This document shows positions 1,057 to 16,303 of a DNA stretch of 64,000 bases, piece after piece. The stretch is from Candidatus Rikenella faecigallinarum. GTDB taxonomy: Bacteria > Bacteroidota > Bacteroidia > Bacteroidales > Rikenellaceae. Each line of letters begins with the position of its first letter. Position 1 is the stretch's first letter. The notes under the pieces are model-generated. The model did not search any database. It was not told the origin of the DNA and saw only the letters and a list, made by a program, of their open reading frames with translations. The position numbers were made by a program, and so were the translations under genes. Where the stretch lies: the NCBI GenBank assembly GCA_019113395.1, contig DXHL01000006.1, forward strand, positions 124,001-188,000, read 5' to 3'.

Positions 1057-1596
1057 CTACTCCGCCACCGTCACAGGGGCCGCCTGACTGACCGTCACCC
1101 CGAGCGACAGCACCCCCACCAACGGGTCATCACCACTCAGCTGGCGAATGGAGAGGGCATATTCGCCCGCTGCACGATAGCGTATCCGACTGCGATAGCG
1201 TTGGGTGAGGTCGTAATGGTTGGAGTAGTGATTGCCATACCACTGCCACTCGCCTCCCTCGGAGGGTTTCCCGAGCGGCAGATAGACCGTATCGACCCAA
1301 AAGCGTTTATCGGGCGTCACGGCCTTGATTTCGAGCGGCAGCTCCGCATAGGCAAAGTCGGCACGGTGGCGAACGGTAATATCCACCCATCGGTCTGACG
1401 GCGTTCCTCCCCGCAGGGTATCCACCCCGAGCGGCACAAAGGTAAAGACCACCGACTGGTTCTGTTTCCACCCCGACGCCGGCAGGTCATACATCTCCAT
1501 GTAATCCCGCGCGACACACCCCGTCAGAAGCGTCATACACCACCCTGCCAGCCAAACCACACCCCCACGCACCCATATATGTTCTCTACGCTTCAT
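1057..1596 (-). CDS. gldH: gliding-motility-type lipoprotein GldH
   Basis: A 179-aa lipoprotein: basic N-terminus, hydrophobic stretch and lipobox LLTG-C with the acylated Cys at residue 27. The body matches GldH (YDLPASGWKQNQSVVF, then a beta-rich domain with the motif YLPLGKPSEG). GldH is named from Flavobacterium gliding but is widespread in non-gliding Bacteroidota, where its role is unclear. A much longer in-frame ORF upstream is only the opposite reading of ricT; the true ATG at 1596 overlaps the end of ricT by 11 bp, so the two are translationally coupled. The ricT-gldH pairing is common in the phylum. Confidence 0.88.
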   Translation of the reverse strand: MKRREHIWVRGGVVWLAGWCMTLLTGCVARDYMEMYDLPASGWKQNQSVVFTFVPLGVDTLRGGTPSDRWVDITVRHRADFAYAELPLEIKAVTPDKRFWVDTVYLPLGKPSEGGEWQWYGNHYSNHYDLTQRYRSRIRYRAAGEYALSIRQLSGDDPLVGVLSLGVTVSQAAPVTVAE

Positions 1597-2977
1597 GCGT
1601 CCCTTGTCCGCCCGAAGCGTTGTTATTCGAATCATTGCCCGGACGCCGACGGCCACCCCGTCCATTGTTCTTACCGCCCCGACGGCTGTGGTTGCCTCGT
1701 CCGCGGCCTGCCGCAGCTGCGTCCCCCTGTTCGGGTCGCGCCGTGGGACGTTGTTCGTCCGCGTCACCCCGCTGTTGCGCCTGTTCGGGACGCGCCGTAA
1801 CCTCACCTGCCGCAGAACCCCCTCCGCGATTATTCCGTCCACCTCGACCACGATTGCGCCCGCCGCGACTTTTGCCGCTGCGAGCCTGGTCGAAACGCGT
1901 AATGCTCTCCTCGCCCACCACATTCTTGATTTCGGGCTCCGCAGGCGCTGCCTGTTGCATCAAAACTGCATCCTCCAGACGGTCTACCTTTTCGCCCCGA
2001 CGGTTCATCGCGACAATCTGCCGCACCCGCTCCGTGGTCAGCGGAATCATCACGGCCGTCGATTGTGCATCGGGACTGAACCACATGATTTGTTTAAAGA
2101 TATCGCTCTTCACCAGATGATACGAGCCGTCCATTGCCTCCAGCGGTCCGTTAAGCCGCGGGAAGGAGCGACGGGCATCGATATACGAATCCAGTTCGTA
2201 ATTCAGACAACATTTGAGTTTGCCGCACTGTCCGGCCAGTTTCTGCGGATTGAGCGAGATTTCCTGATGTCGCGCCGCACCGATGGTGACCGACGAAAAG
2301 TTGTTCATCCAGGTCGAGCAACACAACTCACGGCCGCACGGGGCAATCCCCCCGATGCGTCCGGCCTCCTGCCGCGCACCGATTTGGCGCATTTCGACCC
2401 GAATACGGAACTGTTCGGCCAATACCTTAATCAGTTCCCGGAAATCGACCCGTTCGTCGGCAATGTAGTAGAAAATGGCCTTCAGTTTATCTCCCTGGTA
2501 TTCGACATCCCCGATTTTCATGTTCAGGTGCAGGTCGGCGGCAATCTGCCGCGAACGTATCATGGTCGAGTGTTCGAGGGCGATGGCCTCCTGCCACTTT
2601 TCGATGTCGTAGGGTTTGGCTTTGCGATAGATTTTTTTGAATTCGACCCCCTGCGGATTGAAGCCCGTCCGTTTCATCTGTTTGGAAACCAGTTCTCCGG
2701 TGAGGGTCACGATGCCGATGTCGTGTCCGGGGTTGGCTTCGACCGCCACAATGTCCCCTGCCCGCAGGTGAAGCCCCGCATTGTTCCAGTAGTATCCTTT
2801 GCGGGTATTCTTGAACTGCACTTCGTAGATATCGTTGGTGGCCATGGGGTTGGGCAGGTCGGCCATCCAGTCGAACGTTTCGAGTTTATGGCATCCGGGG
2901 CAGTTGTGTGCCTGGGGCTCGCCGTTGGCATCGGTCGAGAAGCAGCAGCCTCGGGTTGTATTTTTAATACAGGTCAT
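1586..2977 (-). CDS. ricT: RicT/YaaT-type PSP1-domain protein with RG-rich tail
   Basis: A 463-aa protein of the PSP1 C-terminal domain family (B. subtilis RicT/YaaT). It has an N-terminal Cys cluster (TRGCCFSTD, NCPGCHK) and the characteristic pair CGRELCCSTW and CGKLKCCLNYE that in RicT-type proteins binds an Fe-S cluster. In Firmicutes RicT works in a complex that tunes RNase Y and mRNA maturation; the partner in Bacteroidota is not established. Residues about 370-463 are a low-complexity tail with two RG/RGG blocks separated by an acidic stretch that repeats TARPEQ, which suggests nucleic-acid binding (inference). I start at MTCIKNTTRG (2977). A promoter lies at 3037-3068. Confidence 0.9.
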   Translation of the reverse strand: MTCIKNTTRGCCFSTDANGEPQAHNCPGCHKLETFDWMADLPNPMATNDIYEVQFKNTRKGYYWNNAGLHLRAGDIVAVEANPGHDIGIVTLTGELVSKQMKRTGFNPQGVEFKKIYRKAKPYDIEKWQEAIALEHSTMIRSRQIAADLHLNMKIGDVEYQGDKLKAIFYYIADERVDFRELIKVLAEQFRIRVEMRQIGARQEAGRIGGIAPCGRELCCSTWMNNFSSVTIGAARHQEISLNPQKLAGQCGKLKCCLNYELDSYIDARRSFPRLNGPLEAMDGSYHLVKSDIFKQIMWFSPDAQSTAVMIPLTTERVRQIVAMNRRGEKVDRLEDAVLMQQAAPAEPEIKNVVGEESITRFDQARSGKSRGGRNRGRGGRNNRGGGSAAGEVTARPEQAQQRGDADEQRPTARPEQGDAAAAGRGRGNHSRRGGKNNGRGGRRRPGNDSNNNASGGQGTHEA

Positions 2978-3036
2978 GGTTTTTGCATATTGTGAACGCG
3001 CCTTTGCAGCGAAAGGCACGGTAAGTGGCTAATATG

Positions 3037-3068
3037 CAAAGGTACGACGATTAGAGCACTTCTGCAAC
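3037..3068 (-). promoter_or_regulatory. Bacteroidota promoter of ricT-gldH-trmB-ispH
   Basis: On the minus strand a TACCTTTG -7 element (3037-3044) is preceded by TTG (3066-3068) with a 20-bp spacer, matching the TTTG/TAnnTTTG Bacteroidota consensus. It overlaps the 3' end of folC, so the ricT operon has its own start. The predicted leader is about 55 nt. Confidence 0.65.
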
Positions 3069-4346
3069 TGTGAAGGTGCTTCCCCCGACGAAGATAAGGT
3101 CGTCGGCGTTGGCCGCGGCGCGGGCTGCGGCCAACGCCGCGGGAATGGAGGGCACCACCTCTCCACGCAGTCCTGCGGCGCGGGCGCGCCCGGCCAGCGT
3201 TTCCGCGGACAAAGCCCGCGGAAGCTGAGCCTGGGTAAAGAGATAGTGCGCCTCGCGCGGCAAGAGCGGCAGGATATGGTCCAGGTCCTTGTCCGCCACC
3301 ACTCCGAGGATAAAGTAGAGAGTGTGGTATTGTTGGCGCGCCAGTTGGGCAGTCACAAAGCGCAGTCCGGCCTCGTTGTGTCCCGTGTCGCAGATAATCG
3401 GGCAGGGGTCGGCGGCGGTGGCAATGTTTTGCCACCGCCCGGGGACGCGGGCTTCGGCCAGCCCGCGTCGCACCTCCATGGTGGTAAGCGGGCGCGACAA
3501 CCGCTCCGTCAGGCAGTCGAGCGCGGCAAGAGCCGTACAGAGGTTACGTTGCTGGTAATCGCCCTCCATGCCCAGTTGGAGCGTAAAGCGATAGCCATCC
3601 AGAAGGTTTTCCACCTCGTAGAGCCTCCCCTCGTGCTGCGCACAGCGATAACGCTGGTCGGCAAAAAATATCGGCGAGTCGGTTTCATGAGCCCGGGCAA
3701 TAAAGGTCGGAGCCGTTTCGGGTTGATACTCCCCGACCACCACCGGCACCGCGGGTTTGATGATGCCGGCCTTTTCGGCCGCAATTTTCGGGAGCGTATC
3801 CCCCAAAAACTGCATGTGATCGAAACTGATATTGGTGATGACGCTGACCAGCGGCGTGATGACGTTCGTACAGTCCAGCCGTCCGCCCATTCCGACCTCC
3901 ACCACGGCGATATCGACCCCTTCATGTCGGAACCAGTCGAAGGCCATCACGGTAGTTATTTCGAAAAACGAGGGGTGGAGCGTTTCTATATCGGGTCGCA
4001 TCCGTTCGACGAACTCCACGACAGCCGCCTCGGGCATCGGGATGCCATTCACCTGAATCCGCTCCCGAAAATCCTTCAGATGGGGCGAGGTGTAAAGCCC
4101 CACGCGGTAACCCGCCTCGCGCAACACGGCGTAGAGCATCTGCGAGACAGAGCCTTTGCCGTTGGTTCCTGCCACATGCACCGTTTGAAAGGCTTGATAT
4201 GGATTACCGAGCCGTTCGTTGAGTTCGATGGTAGTTTCGAGTCCCTCTTTGTAGGCACTGCCGCCCACCTGCTGGAACATCGGAGCCGTATGGTACAGAT
4301 AGTCGATGGTTTCGGGATAGGTCATCATAATACTGTTTTTCTCCAT
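3051..4346 (-). CDS. folC: Bifunctional folylpolyglutamate synthase / dihydrofolate synthase
   Basis: FolC (431 aa) adds glutamate to dihydropteroate and to reduced folates in the cytoplasm, with ATP. Seen in the sequence: the P-loop VHVAGTNGKGSVSQML, the SPHLKDFRERIQVNG folate loop, VVEVGMGGRLDCTN, and SFDHMQFLGDT, all Mur-ligase/FolC hallmarks in the right order; the C-terminal domain has DTGHNEAGLR. Length is normal for the family. The start could also be one of two ATGs six and seven codons further in (MMTYPETIDYLY), which is where many homologues begin. It follows lnt with a 25-bp gap on the same strand. Confidence 0.95.
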   Translation of the reverse strand: MEKNSIMMTYPETIDYLYHTAPMFQQVGGSAYKEGLETTIELNERLGNPYQAFQTVHVAGTNGKGSVSQMLYAVLREAGYRVGLYTSPHLKDFRERIQVNGIPMPEAAVVEFVERMRPDIETLHPSFFEITTVMAFDWFRHEGVDIAVVEVGMGGRLDCTNVITPLVSVITNISFDHMQFLGDTLPKIAAEKAGIIKPAVPVVVGEYQPETAPTFIARAHETDSPIFFADQRYRCAQHEGRLYEVENLLDGYRFTLQLGMEGDYQQRNLCTALAALDCLTERLSRPLTTMEVRRGLAEARVPGRWQNIATAADPCPIICDTGHNEAGLRFVTAQLARQQYHTLYFILGVVADKDLDHILPLLPREAHYLFTQAQLPRALSAETLAGRARAAGLRGEVVPSIPAALAAARAAANADDLIFVGGSTFTVAEVL

Positions 4347-12718: not shown

Positions 12719-13936
12719 ATGAAGAAAAGTTTCCTCTTAGGCGCAATAGCAGGTATGGGTCTGCTGTTTTCGTGCGCCAGCGACCCCTATGCGGGTCTCG
12801 ACCCGAAATTGGCAGCCGACCTTCAGGCCAATATTGCCGCCGCAGGCGATAACGGTCAAGAGTTGCTCAAGGCGTTGAAAGAAGCCCCGAAGGCACAGCG
12901 CGAAGGAATGGCTTTCCTGATAGCCTACATGCCGGAGGGCGACCGCGACACGCTGACGGCCGATTTTCTATTGGAAGAGGTCGGTTGGGCCTATAAGGCC
13001 CGCGAGACCTTCCCGTGGACCCAAGCGCTGCCCGATTCGGTTTTCTATAACGATGTCCTGCCCTACGCCTCGATGGACGAACGCCGCGAACCGTGGCGGG
13101 CCATGTACTGGGAAAAACTCTACCCGCTGGTGGACAGCATCACCGACGTGCGGGCTGCCATCGACACGATTAACAAACAGCTGCAATACCTCGTCGGGGT
13201 GGAATACAACACCAAACGCGAAAAACCGAACCAGTCACCCAGCGAATCGATGCGTCAGGGAATGGCCTCGTGCAGCGGGCTGTCGATACTGCTGACCGAT
13301 GCGTTCCGTACGATGGGGATTCCGTCGCGCATTGCCGGTACGCCGCTCTGGGTATCGAAAGAGGGGAACCACAACTGGACCGAGGTATGGATTGACGGCG
13401 ACTGGTATTTCACGGAGTACTACCCCACTCCGGCACTGAACCGCAGCTGGTTCCTCGAACGCGCCGGCAAGGCCGACAAGAGCGACCCGATTTACTGGAT
13501 GTACGCCACCTCGTGGAAACCTACCGGGCTGAGTTTCCCGATGGTGTGGGACTTCAAAAACAAGAACGTTCCCGGGATTGACGTAACGGACTTCTACATC
13601 GACCTCTACAATGCCCAGATGGCCGAAGCCAAAAACGGGGCTCCGGTGGTTGTTCGGATGTTCCGTTCGGCAACGGGCGGCCGCAGCAGCGGCGACCGTG
13701 TGGCGCAGGACATCAAGGTGGTGGATGCCGACGGCAATATGGTAGCTGCCGGAAAGACTGCCGGCCCGACCGCCGACATGAACGACTATCTGACCCTCTA
13801 CCTGCCGTTCGGCAAGGCGCTGAAGGTGGAATTTACCGATGCAGCGGGTGCCACCCACAGCACGCCGATTGTCACTCCTCAGGCCGTAGAGGGTAAGGAG
13901 ACGGCCGCCACGGAAGTAGAGCTCTATCTGGAATAG
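12719..13936 (+). CDS. Transglutaminase-like lipoprotein
   Basis: A 405-aa lipoprotein (signal ending GLLFS-C19) with a transglutaminase-like papain-fold domain in the middle. The catalytic Cys is C185 in MASCSGLSILL and the His is H218 in GNHNWTEVWIDGDWYF; both contexts match the family. The N-terminal about 120 residues are helical, and the C-terminus from about residue 300 is a beta domain. It is probably anchored to a cell-envelope membrane and may act as a peptidase or amidase; the substrate is unknown. It is monocistronic, with its own promoter and terminator. Confidence 0.84.
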   Translation: MKKSFLLGAIAGMGLLFSCASDPYAGLDPKLAADLQANIAAAGDNGQELLKALKEAPKAQREGMAFLIAYMPEGDRDTLTADFLLEEVGWAYKARETFPWTQALPDSVFYNDVLPYASMDERREPWRAMYWEKLYPLVDSITDVRAAIDTINKQLQYLVGVEYNTKREKPNQSPSESMRQGMASCSGLSILLTDAFRTMGIPSRIAGTPLWVSKEGNHNWTEVWIDGDWYFTEYYPTPALNRSWFLERAGKADKSDPIYWMYATSWKPTGLSFPMVWDFKNKNVPGIDVTDFYIDLYNAQMAEAKNGAPVVVRMFRSATGGRSSGDRVAQDIKVVDADGNMVAAGKTAGPTADMNDYLTLYLPFGKALKVEFTDAAGATHSTPIVTPQAVEGKETAATEVELYLE

Positions 13937-13996: not shown

Positions 13997-14047
13997 GCCC
14001 TCTGCTTTTCGCCTTAGCTATTACCCCTTCCCCCTGCTTTGCACACG

Positions 14048-16303
14048 ATGTCCACACCTTATGCCGACGTATTGCTGCCGTTAGCCGCACCGCAGGCCTT
14101 CACCTACTCCGTTCCTGCGGGGGTGGAGTTGGCCGAGGGGATGCGTGTGCGGGTGCCGCTCGGGAAACGGAAAATTTGCGAGGGGGTGGTAGTGCGGCTG
14201 CACGACACGGCTCCACGCAACCCGAACCGTGTCAAAGCGATTGTCGAGGTGCTCGACACGGAGCCTTTCGTGCGACCCGAGCAACGGCGACTGTGGTCGT
14301 GGATGGCCGGCTACTACCTCTGCACGGAGGGTGAGGTGATGAAGGCGGGCCTGCCGGCAGGGATACGCAACGGGAGCTACCATCCTCCGACCGAACTTTT
14401 TGTCCGACTGACGGAGTCTTATCGGTCGCCGCAGCGCATTCAAGAGGCTTTGGAATCGATGCAGCGGGCCAAGACCCAGAGCAAAGCCCTGCTGACCTAC
14501 CTCTCCCGACTGCCACAGGACGCCCAGGGGGAACCGTGTATTGAGACGCTGACAGAAGAGGCGTTGTGGGTTTTACGCAACGACCTCACGGGACAGGTGC
14601 CCGCATCAGCCCTGCTGAAACTGGTCGAACGGGGTATTCTGGTGCAGGCGGAGCGCATTCCGTCAGCAGCATCGCGACGGTCGGGAAGTGCCCCCTTCAA
14701 TGAAGCCGCCATCCCCCGCTCTCCCTATGCAGAGCAAGTGTGGCAGGCTTTTGAAAGCCACCCCACCGTTCTGCTGAGCGGTGAGGTGGCAGATGCCCGT
14801 CGGACGACCCTGCCGCTCTACGGCTCGCTGATTGCCCGCGAAATGGCCGCCGGACGACAAACCCTCCTGCTGCTGCCCGACACGGTGCTGACCACACAGG
14901 TGACCAACGAACTGCAGAACCGCTTCGGGTCGCGCTGCCTCTTCTACCACGCCCGCCTGAGCGACCGTGCCCGCGGCGCAGCCTACCAACGCATGGTGGA
15001 GGCACCCGAGGAGGTCGGATTAATCGTGGGGACCCGTTCATCGCTTTTTCTGCCATTCCAACGGCTCGGGTTGGTCATCGTCGACAACGAACACGACCCC
15101 AACTACCGCCAGAGCGACCCCGCTCCGCGCTACCATGCGCGGGATACGGCACTGGTGCTGGCCGACCTGCACGGAGCCCGTGCGCTGCTGTCGAGCCCTA
15201 CGCCCTCCACCGAGAGCTGGCTGAACGCCCAACCCGAAGGGGGTAAGTACGGGTCGGTGACCGTCCCGACGCCGTGCGATGTGCGGCGTCCCAACGTAAT
15301 GGTACTGGAGCGGGGCAAGGGGCTGCTGTCCAAGTACCTGCAACGACGCATCGGCGAGACGCTGGAGGAGGGACGGCAGGTCGTTCTGTTTCAAAATCGG
15401 CGGGGATTTTCCCCCTACGTCGAATGCGGCAACTGCGGTACGACACCGACCTGCCCGCACTGCAACGTCACCCTGACCTACCACAAGGAACATGCGGCGC
15501 TGGAGTGCCACTATTGCGGGTGGGCACAGCCCTACTCCCTGCGCTGCCCGTCGTGCGAGATGCAGGCGATGGTGCCGCGGGGTATCGGCACGGAACGCAT
15601 CGAAGAGCTGGCGGCAGAGCTCTTTCCCGAGGTAAAGATTGCCCGCATGGACACCGACACGACACGAGGAGCCGGAGCACTCAGCCGTATGCTGACCGAG
15701 CTGTCGGAGGGCGAAACGGGTATTCTGGTCGGTACACAGATAGTCACCCGCACGGCTCAGGCCGGGGAGAACATCGGGCTGGTGGGCGTGATTAATGCGG
15801 ACAACATGTTGTCGTCCCCCGAATTTCGGTCGGCCGAACGCGCCTATCAGCTGCTGATGCAGCTGAAGGCGCTCCTCCCCGATGACGGCAGCGGTGAAAT
15901 GGTGATTCAAAGCTCCCAGCGACTGCATCCCGTACTGGTGGCGGTTTCGAACCACGAGTTGGCCTCGTTCTATGCCGCTCAGCTTCAGGAGCGGCAGGCG
16001 GTAGGCTATCCGCCCTACGTGCGGATGCTGCGGCTGACGTTCCTGCACAGCACCAAGCAGCAGGCAGCCGCGGCGGCTGCCTGCTGCGAAGCCTTGCTGC
16101 GCGAGCGATTCGGACGGCGGGTCTCGCCGCCGTTCGAACCGCAGGTGGACCGCGTCCAGAACCGTTTTATCTTCCATCTGCTGCTGCGCATCGAGCGGCA
16201 ACGCCCCGTGGCACGTGCCAAAGCCCTGATGCTGGAAACAGTCGCAGCCGTACGAAAGCAATACCCCTCGGTGCACATCACGGCGGAGGCCGACCCGCTT
16301 TAA
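14048..16303 (+). CDS. priA: PriA-family primosomal protein with degenerate helicase motifs
   Basis: A 751-aa full-length PriA, the replication-restart factor that recognises stalled forks and loads the replisome. Kept: the N-terminal DNA-binding domain (residues 1-100, AFTYSVP), the zinc region with eight cysteines (C460, 463, 469, 472, 487, 490, 500, 503), motif IV (FQNRRGFSP) and the C-terminal YPPY region. Lost: Walker A, usually GxTGSGKT, is GEVADARRT (245-253); DEEHD is DNEHD (346-350); motif III is LSSPTPS; motif V lost its KG (VTRTAQ); the GRAGR of motif VI is absent (604-616, MQLKALLPDDG). It should not hydrolyse ATP or unwind DNA (inference). The reading frame is intact. An in-frame TTG at 14039 is an alternative start. 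Confidence 0.9.
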   Translation: MSTPYADVLLPLAAPQAFTYSVPAGVELAEGMRVRVPLGKRKICEGVVVRLHDTAPRNPNRVKAIVEVLDTEPFVRPEQRRLWSWMAGYYLCTEGEVMKAGLPAGIRNGSYHPPTELFVRLTESYRSPQRIQEALESMQRAKTQSKALLTYLSRLPQDAQGEPCIETLTEEALWVLRNDLTGQVPASALLKLVERGILVQAERIPSAASRRSGSAPFNEAAIPRSPYAEQVWQAFESHPTVLLSGEVADARRTTLPLYGSLIAREMAAGRQTLLLLPDTVLTTQVTNELQNRFGSRCLFYHARLSDRARGAAYQRMVEAPEEVGLIVGTRSSLFLPFQRLGLVIVDNEHDPNYRQSDPAPRYHARDTALVLADLHGARALLSSPTPSTESWLNAQPEGGKYGSVTVPTPCDVRRPNVMVLERGKGLLSKYLQRRIGETLEEGRQVVLFQNRRGFSPYVECGNCGTTPTCPHCNVTLTYHKEHAALECHYCGWAQPYSLRCPSCEMQAMVPRGIGTERIEELAAELFPEVKIARMDTDTTRGAGALSRMLTELSEGETGILVGTQIVTRTAQAGENIGLVGVINADNMLSSPEFRSAERAYQLLMQLKALLPDDGSGEMVIQSSQRLHPVLVAVSNHELASFYAAQLQERQAVGYPPYVRMLRLTFLHSTKQQAAAAAACCEALLRERFGRRVSPPFEPQVDRVQNRFIFHLLLRIERQRPVARAKALMLETVAAVRKQYPSVHITAEADPL

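Follow-up and report, generated by a model that had tools for sequence, protein, structure and literature searches.

A conserved PriA without helicase ATPase motifs in Rikenella

The priA locus

The window, the whole 64,000-nucleotide stretch of DNA that we analyzed, carries a priA gene whose parts are listed in Table 1. The frame is open over all 751 codons, and a TTG lies upstream of its ATG start, at 14039. The product scored 405.9 bits against TIGR00595, where the family cut-off is 230.35, which places it in the PriA family, and it matched PRK05580 far better than PRK14873 (490.9 versus 155.8 bits). The domain models PF17764, PF18319 (the PriA zinc ribbon), and PF18074 all scored over their cut-offs, and the PriA domain set is present: an N-terminal 3'-DNA-binding domain, a zinc region with eight cysteines, and a C-terminal domain. 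In the alignment with E. coli PriA, all eight zinc cysteines are kept, at residues 460, 463, 469, 472, 487, 490, 500, and 503. The DEAD domain match fell below its own cut-off.

A search for a second, complete priA, suggested in the initial annotation, found none in the same genome, which is 98.65% complete, so the single copy holds; judged by their sequences, the remaining TIGR00595 hits in this genome are Mfd, UvrB, and RecG. Among the relatives' genomes examined there is likewise one PriA per genome. Upstream of priA, at 12719-13936 on the + strand, lies a frame for a predicted lipoprotein of 405 aa, transglutaminase-like by eye, which no NCBIfam model matched.

Table 1. Features of the priA gene in the window
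Feature	Residues	Position	Strand	State and evidence
priA		14048..16300	+	Single-copy PriA without ATPase motifs; 751 aa, ATG start; TIGR00595 match
3'-DNA-binding domain	5-105	14060..14362	+	Kept; PF17764, E 2.8e-28
Former motif I (Walker A)	245-252	14780..14803	+	GEVADARR versus GVTGSGKT; alignment; 2/8 positions invariant in genus
Former motif II (DEEHD)	346-350	15083..15097	+	DNEHD, catalytic Glu lost; alignment
Former motif III (SATP)	383-386	15194..15205	+	SPTP; alignment
Motif IV (NRRGF)	450-454	15395..15409	+	Kept; alignment
Cysteine-rich region, eight zinc cysteines	460-503	15425..15556	+	Kept; profile match and E. coli alignment
Former motif V	562-575	15731..15772	+	GTQIVTRTAQAGEN; RTAQAGE-type replacement conserved in Rikenella
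Former motif VI (QVAGRAGR)	605-612	15860..15883	+	QLKALLPD; both arginines lost; L-K-x-L-L-P conserved in Rikenella
PriA C-terminal domain	656-750	16013..16297	+	Kept; PF18074, E 6.3e-8

Loss of the ATPase motifs

The initial annotation had described a PriA that lost its helicase ATPase motifs and kept motif IV, the eight zinc cysteines, and the N- and C-terminal domains. With E. coli K-12 PriA as the motif reference, we found that each of the losses, in motifs I, II, III, V, and VI, was real, and the alignment and domain matches upheld the retained parts as well. The span that it had marked (14777-15900) corresponds to residues 244-618, from motif I through motif VI.

Among the P-loop glycines of motif I, only the first is left; Lys230 and Thr231 of the E. 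coli protein are gone, with R251 in place of K230 here and R or Q across Rikenella. In motif II, E. coli D320 is kept as D346 and E321 is replaced by N347 (N, H, or S in Rikenella), while all Rikenella retain Asp346 and Glu348. Further replacements are A357 by P384 in motif III, K544-G545 by R568-T569 in motif V, and R584 and R587 by L609 and D612 in motif VI (in Rikenella, L at the former and D, A, or T at the latter). No full-length Rikenella sequence retains the equivalents of K230, E321, R584, and R587. The protein thus lacks motifs I, II, III, V, and VI with the key residues of an active SF2 PriA helicase, and these replacements predict a protein with neither ATPase nor unwinding activity.

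Distribution of the loss in Rikenellaceae

Eight Rikenella species were compared. Each of the seven full-length PriA sequences among them has lost motifs I, II, III, V, and VI; the eighth is a C-terminal fragment at a contig end, in which motifs V and VI are lost. Losses in 8 of 8 Rikenella genomes are more than would be expected by chance. Degenerate PriA was also found in genus g13, in all three genomes with a PriA match, and in two genomes of genus g10. All other family and order sequences that we read directly have intact PriA motifs; the comparison with relatives on a tree, as suggested in the initial annotation, revealed a clade-wide loss among otherwise intact genera. When 268 Rikenellaceae genomes were surveyed with an intact motif I-III segment, g13 and g10 gave the lowest scores, split and masked genes aside; Rikenella scores overlapped those of divergent intact genera (g9 and g14), so that a Rikenella-like loss could hide in genomes that were not read. 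Four further genomes (G246, G216, G261, and G247) were suspected of losses, but these came down to contig ends, split genes, or masking, and the motifs were intact wherever they could be read.

In the RpoB tree, g13 is the sister of Rikenella (100/99) and g10 lies elsewhere in the family; a single clade of all degenerate genomes was rejected by the RpoB test (p 0.015). The PriA tree, built with the motif columns left out, agrees with the RpoB tree and has long branches, and the test on it did not reject a single degenerate clade (p 0.13). The best reading is that of two losses in the family, one on the Rikenella-g13 stem and one in g10. Since the loss is seen in all Rikenella and in g13, a single loss of the motor probably preceded the split between these two, and the g10 loss was probably a second, independent event. 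It is conceivable that Rikenella and g13 lost the motor separately.

Two side observations concern the relatives. Six sequences from g9, g11, g14, and g21, near Rikenella and g13 (L022, L029, L044, L047, L055, and L057), have GRLTRG, GRMCRG, GRTSRN, or GRVSRG in place of GRAGR; both arginines are kept, as is the P-loop where covered. This altered motif VI is possibly an early step towards motor loss. A genome of the same order (G056; Bacteroidales, 4.2 Mb, 95% complete) had zero PriA matches, reflecting either absence of the gene or a missing contig.

Selection on the degenerate protein

We compared PriA divergence with that of RpoB. Pairs within Rikenella fell near the line defined by intact PriA, with a mean z of -0.76; pairs of a Rikenella and an intact PriA lay above it (z 1.8), and g13 PriA was far above it (z 3.3 to 4.7 relative to RpoB). 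These values fit a burst of change on the Rikenella stem followed by ordinary constraint. Pairwise NG86 dN/dS for Rikenella priA was about 0.1-0.2 (0.13-0.20) over the whole gene and fell below this in lobe 2, though dS was in part saturated. Compared at equal divergence (overall identity 0.73), Rikenella was slightly less conserved than the intact genus g22 in lobe 1 (0.757 versus 0.799) and somewhat more conserved in the C part of lobe 2 (0.823 versus 0.785) and in the C-terminal domain (0.781 versus 0.678), a trend drawn from few genera; the winged-helix/linker part is poorly conserved across all genera.

Within Rikenella, 377 of 746 PriA positions are invariant. Former motif I is drifting; the new forms of motifs II, III, V, and VI are maintained, with 4/6, 4/6, 18/25, and 9/12 positions invariant, respectively. 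None of the degenerate genomes has a broken frame, and motif IV and the eight cysteines are kept in every degenerate sequence compared. Rikenella PriA is therefore under purifying selection and not decaying; the earlier judgment that the gene is not a pseudogene is borne out by both the 751-codon frame and the conservation within the genus. The g13 proteins (L066, L067, and L032) show identities near 31-35% yet keep the eight zinc cysteines and motif IV; given their fast evolution, they may be losing function.

Fold and partner proteins

An AlphaFold2 model of Rikenella PriA, built from a 6-sequence alignment, was of moderate confidence (pLDDT 74.5, pTM 0.60). The top Foldseek matches of this model, well ahead of all others, were PriA structures (4nl4, 6dgd, and 8fak; E 2.7e-46), indicating that the predicted fold is that of PriA. 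DciA was found in 20 of the 21 genomes tested, including this one, whether PriA was intact or not; because it is so widespread, DciA permits the loss of the motor without explaining it.

RecG, with intact-looking motifs, is present in the same genome. The genome also encodes a RecQ that scores over the TIGR01389 cut-off and has intact-looking motifs. Loss of RecG, which we considered as a correlate with the priA300 suppression of recG in mind, is not seen, and neither is a compensating gain of a UvrD-type helicase. In one g13 genome (locus L032 of G019), a recQ 84% identical to that of the window adjoins the degenerate priA (8-1303 and 1501-3591); this is the only genome in which we saw the two genes adjoin.

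Alternative explanations

The main competitor is a division of labor in which PriA binds the fork and RecQ, RecG, or PcrA/UvrD takes over unwinding of the nascent lagging strand at restart. The intact-looking RecQ and RecG speak for it, as does the position of recQ, 2 kb downstream of priA here and next to it in the g13 genome. In two other Rikenella genomes, however, the distance between recQ and priA is about 28 and 48 kb. The same set of UvrD/PcrA-type, AddA/RecB-type, and RecQ- and RecG-sized SF2 helicases is present in nearly all of the examined relatives that have an intact PriA, and almost every relative examined, whatever the state of its PriA, has an SF2 helicase of RecQ size, the names among relatives being inferred from protein size. 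No extra UvrD-type or SF2 helicase tracks motor loss in the pseudohelicase genomes relative to intact relatives. Neither synteny nor gene content supports RecQ as a dedicated partner, and the proposal in the initial annotation that the nearby RecQ supplies the missing motor did not hold up. We consider a takeover by another helicase doubtful.

Far less probable is relaxed selection, whereby PriA-dependent restart would have become dispensable in the lineage and the gene would be heading for loss. The disappearance of five motifs, the drift of the P-loop, the raised rate on the Rikenella stem, and the fast evolution of g13 would suit such a history; the normal rate within Rikenella, the low dN/dS, the unbroken frames, the retention of motif IV and the cysteines, and the conservation of four former motifs in new form argue against it. 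Even less credence is due to a non-canonical ATPase that binds or hydrolyzes ATP through other residues. It could draw on Asp346 and Glu348 and on the arginine often found at the former P-loop lysine; set against this are the loss of the P-loop glycines (bar the first), the Lys, the Thr, the catalytic Glu, and the motif VI arginines, and the finding that the D. radiodurans protein, which carries Arg for the P-loop Lys, lacks ATPase activity (PMC4504706). That the motifs reflect errors of sequencing or assembly, a caveat of the initial annotation, is refuted, since the identical loss recurs in all 8 Rikenella genomes and in 3 of 3 g13 genomes with a PriA match; the likelihood of such errors is practically nil.

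Proposed function

We favor, with considerable confidence, a model in which Rikenella PriA, the sole PriA of the cell, is a pseudohelicase that recognizes forks and reloads DnaB, probably with DciA, and without ATP. The model builds on what we observed directly, namely, the motif losses, the single copy, the clade-wide occurrence, purifying selection, a PriA-like predicted fold, and DciA in the genome; fork binding, DnaB reloading, and cooperation with DciA would follow by analogy. In E. coli, K230R alone abolishes the ATPase and helicase of PriA and leaves primosome assembly intact (reviewed in PMC4504706); by analogy with this mutant and with D. radiodurans PriA, the Rikenella protein would reload DnaB without ATP.

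In this model, the parts with which PriA binds abandoned forks and D-loops would be its 3'-DNA-binding domain, its winged helix, and its two inert helicase lobes, the lobes acting as a DNA-binding scaffold. DnaB would be recruited directly or via a DciA-type loader, with no ATP hydrolysis, and PriA itself would not unwind the nascent lagging strand. After the loss of its motor, the protein would have come under constraint in a new form. Since Asp346 and Glu348 remain, it might still bind nucleotide weakly while hydrolyzing none. A PriA that has no motor may also be kept from unwinding D-loops wrongly, since the helicase-dead priA300 (K230R) allele suppresses E. coli recG defects (PMC4752480). 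More speculatively, the motor may have been lost at least twice in the family and the dead motor of Rikenella remodeled into a conserved DnaB/DciA-docking surface for ATP-free restart in DciA-type bacteria, an extension that we rate as unlikely; candidate parts of such a surface are RTAQAGE (motif V), L-K-x-L-L-P (motif VI), and the unusually conserved C-terminal domain.

A limited literature search found no report of a pseudohelicase PriA in Bacteroidota, and replication restart in this phylum is little studied in the literature searched. The motor loss described here affects an entire genus of gut Bacteroidales that can be cultured, and it recurs at a second site in the family. Because these losses lie among close, intact relatives, they provide pairs of near-sister lineages of which one has the motor and the other does not, and in such pairs the role of the PriA helicase beyond primosome assembly can be addressed by comparison and allele swaps. 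Rikenella probably reload their replication machinery without a PriA motor, for which the laboratory demonstration so far comes from Deinococcus.

Comparison with known PriA proteins

Canonical PriA of E. coli and K. pneumoniae (8fak, 6dgd, and 4nl4) shares with the Rikenella protein its domain order, 3'-DNA-binding domain, zinc cysteines, motif IV, C-terminal domain, and predicted fold, and differs in its ATPase motifs, which Rikenella has lost. Actinobacterial PriA (the NCBIfam PRK14873 group) has no detectable helicase motifs, and its hosts use DciA; by profile score, however, Rikenella PriA is far nearer to PRK05580 than to this group. The E. coli priA300 protein can support primosome assembly without helicase activity, but it is a laboratory point mutant, whereas the Rikenella loss is natural, old, and extensive, with recG still present.

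The closest parallel is D. radiodurans PriA, a natural, ATPase-dead protein whose binding to forks and DnaB persists (Lopper et al. 2015; PMC4504706). In Deinococcus-Thermus PriA the P-loop Lys is Arg and motifs I and II match poorly; outside this group the helicase motifs were reported to be well conserved, and no clear priB or dnaT was reported in Deinococcus (PMC4504706). That report left open whether the lagging strand is cleared by a second helicase or whether only forks that need no clearing are restarted (PMC4504706). Our motif comparison upheld the likeness to Deinococcus drawn in the initial annotation: in both, Walker A and Walker B are lost lineage-wide from a conserved PriA that is otherwise complete in architecture. 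The two differ in phylum and origin, and DNA and DnaB binding were measured for the Deinococcus protein, whereas that of Rikenella is known from its sequence. In Rikenella, motifs I, II, III, V, and VI are all replaced, and the replacements in V and VI are conserved across the genus. Judged by its motifs, Rikenella PriA is an independent case of the Deinococcus kind, with more of the motor replaced.
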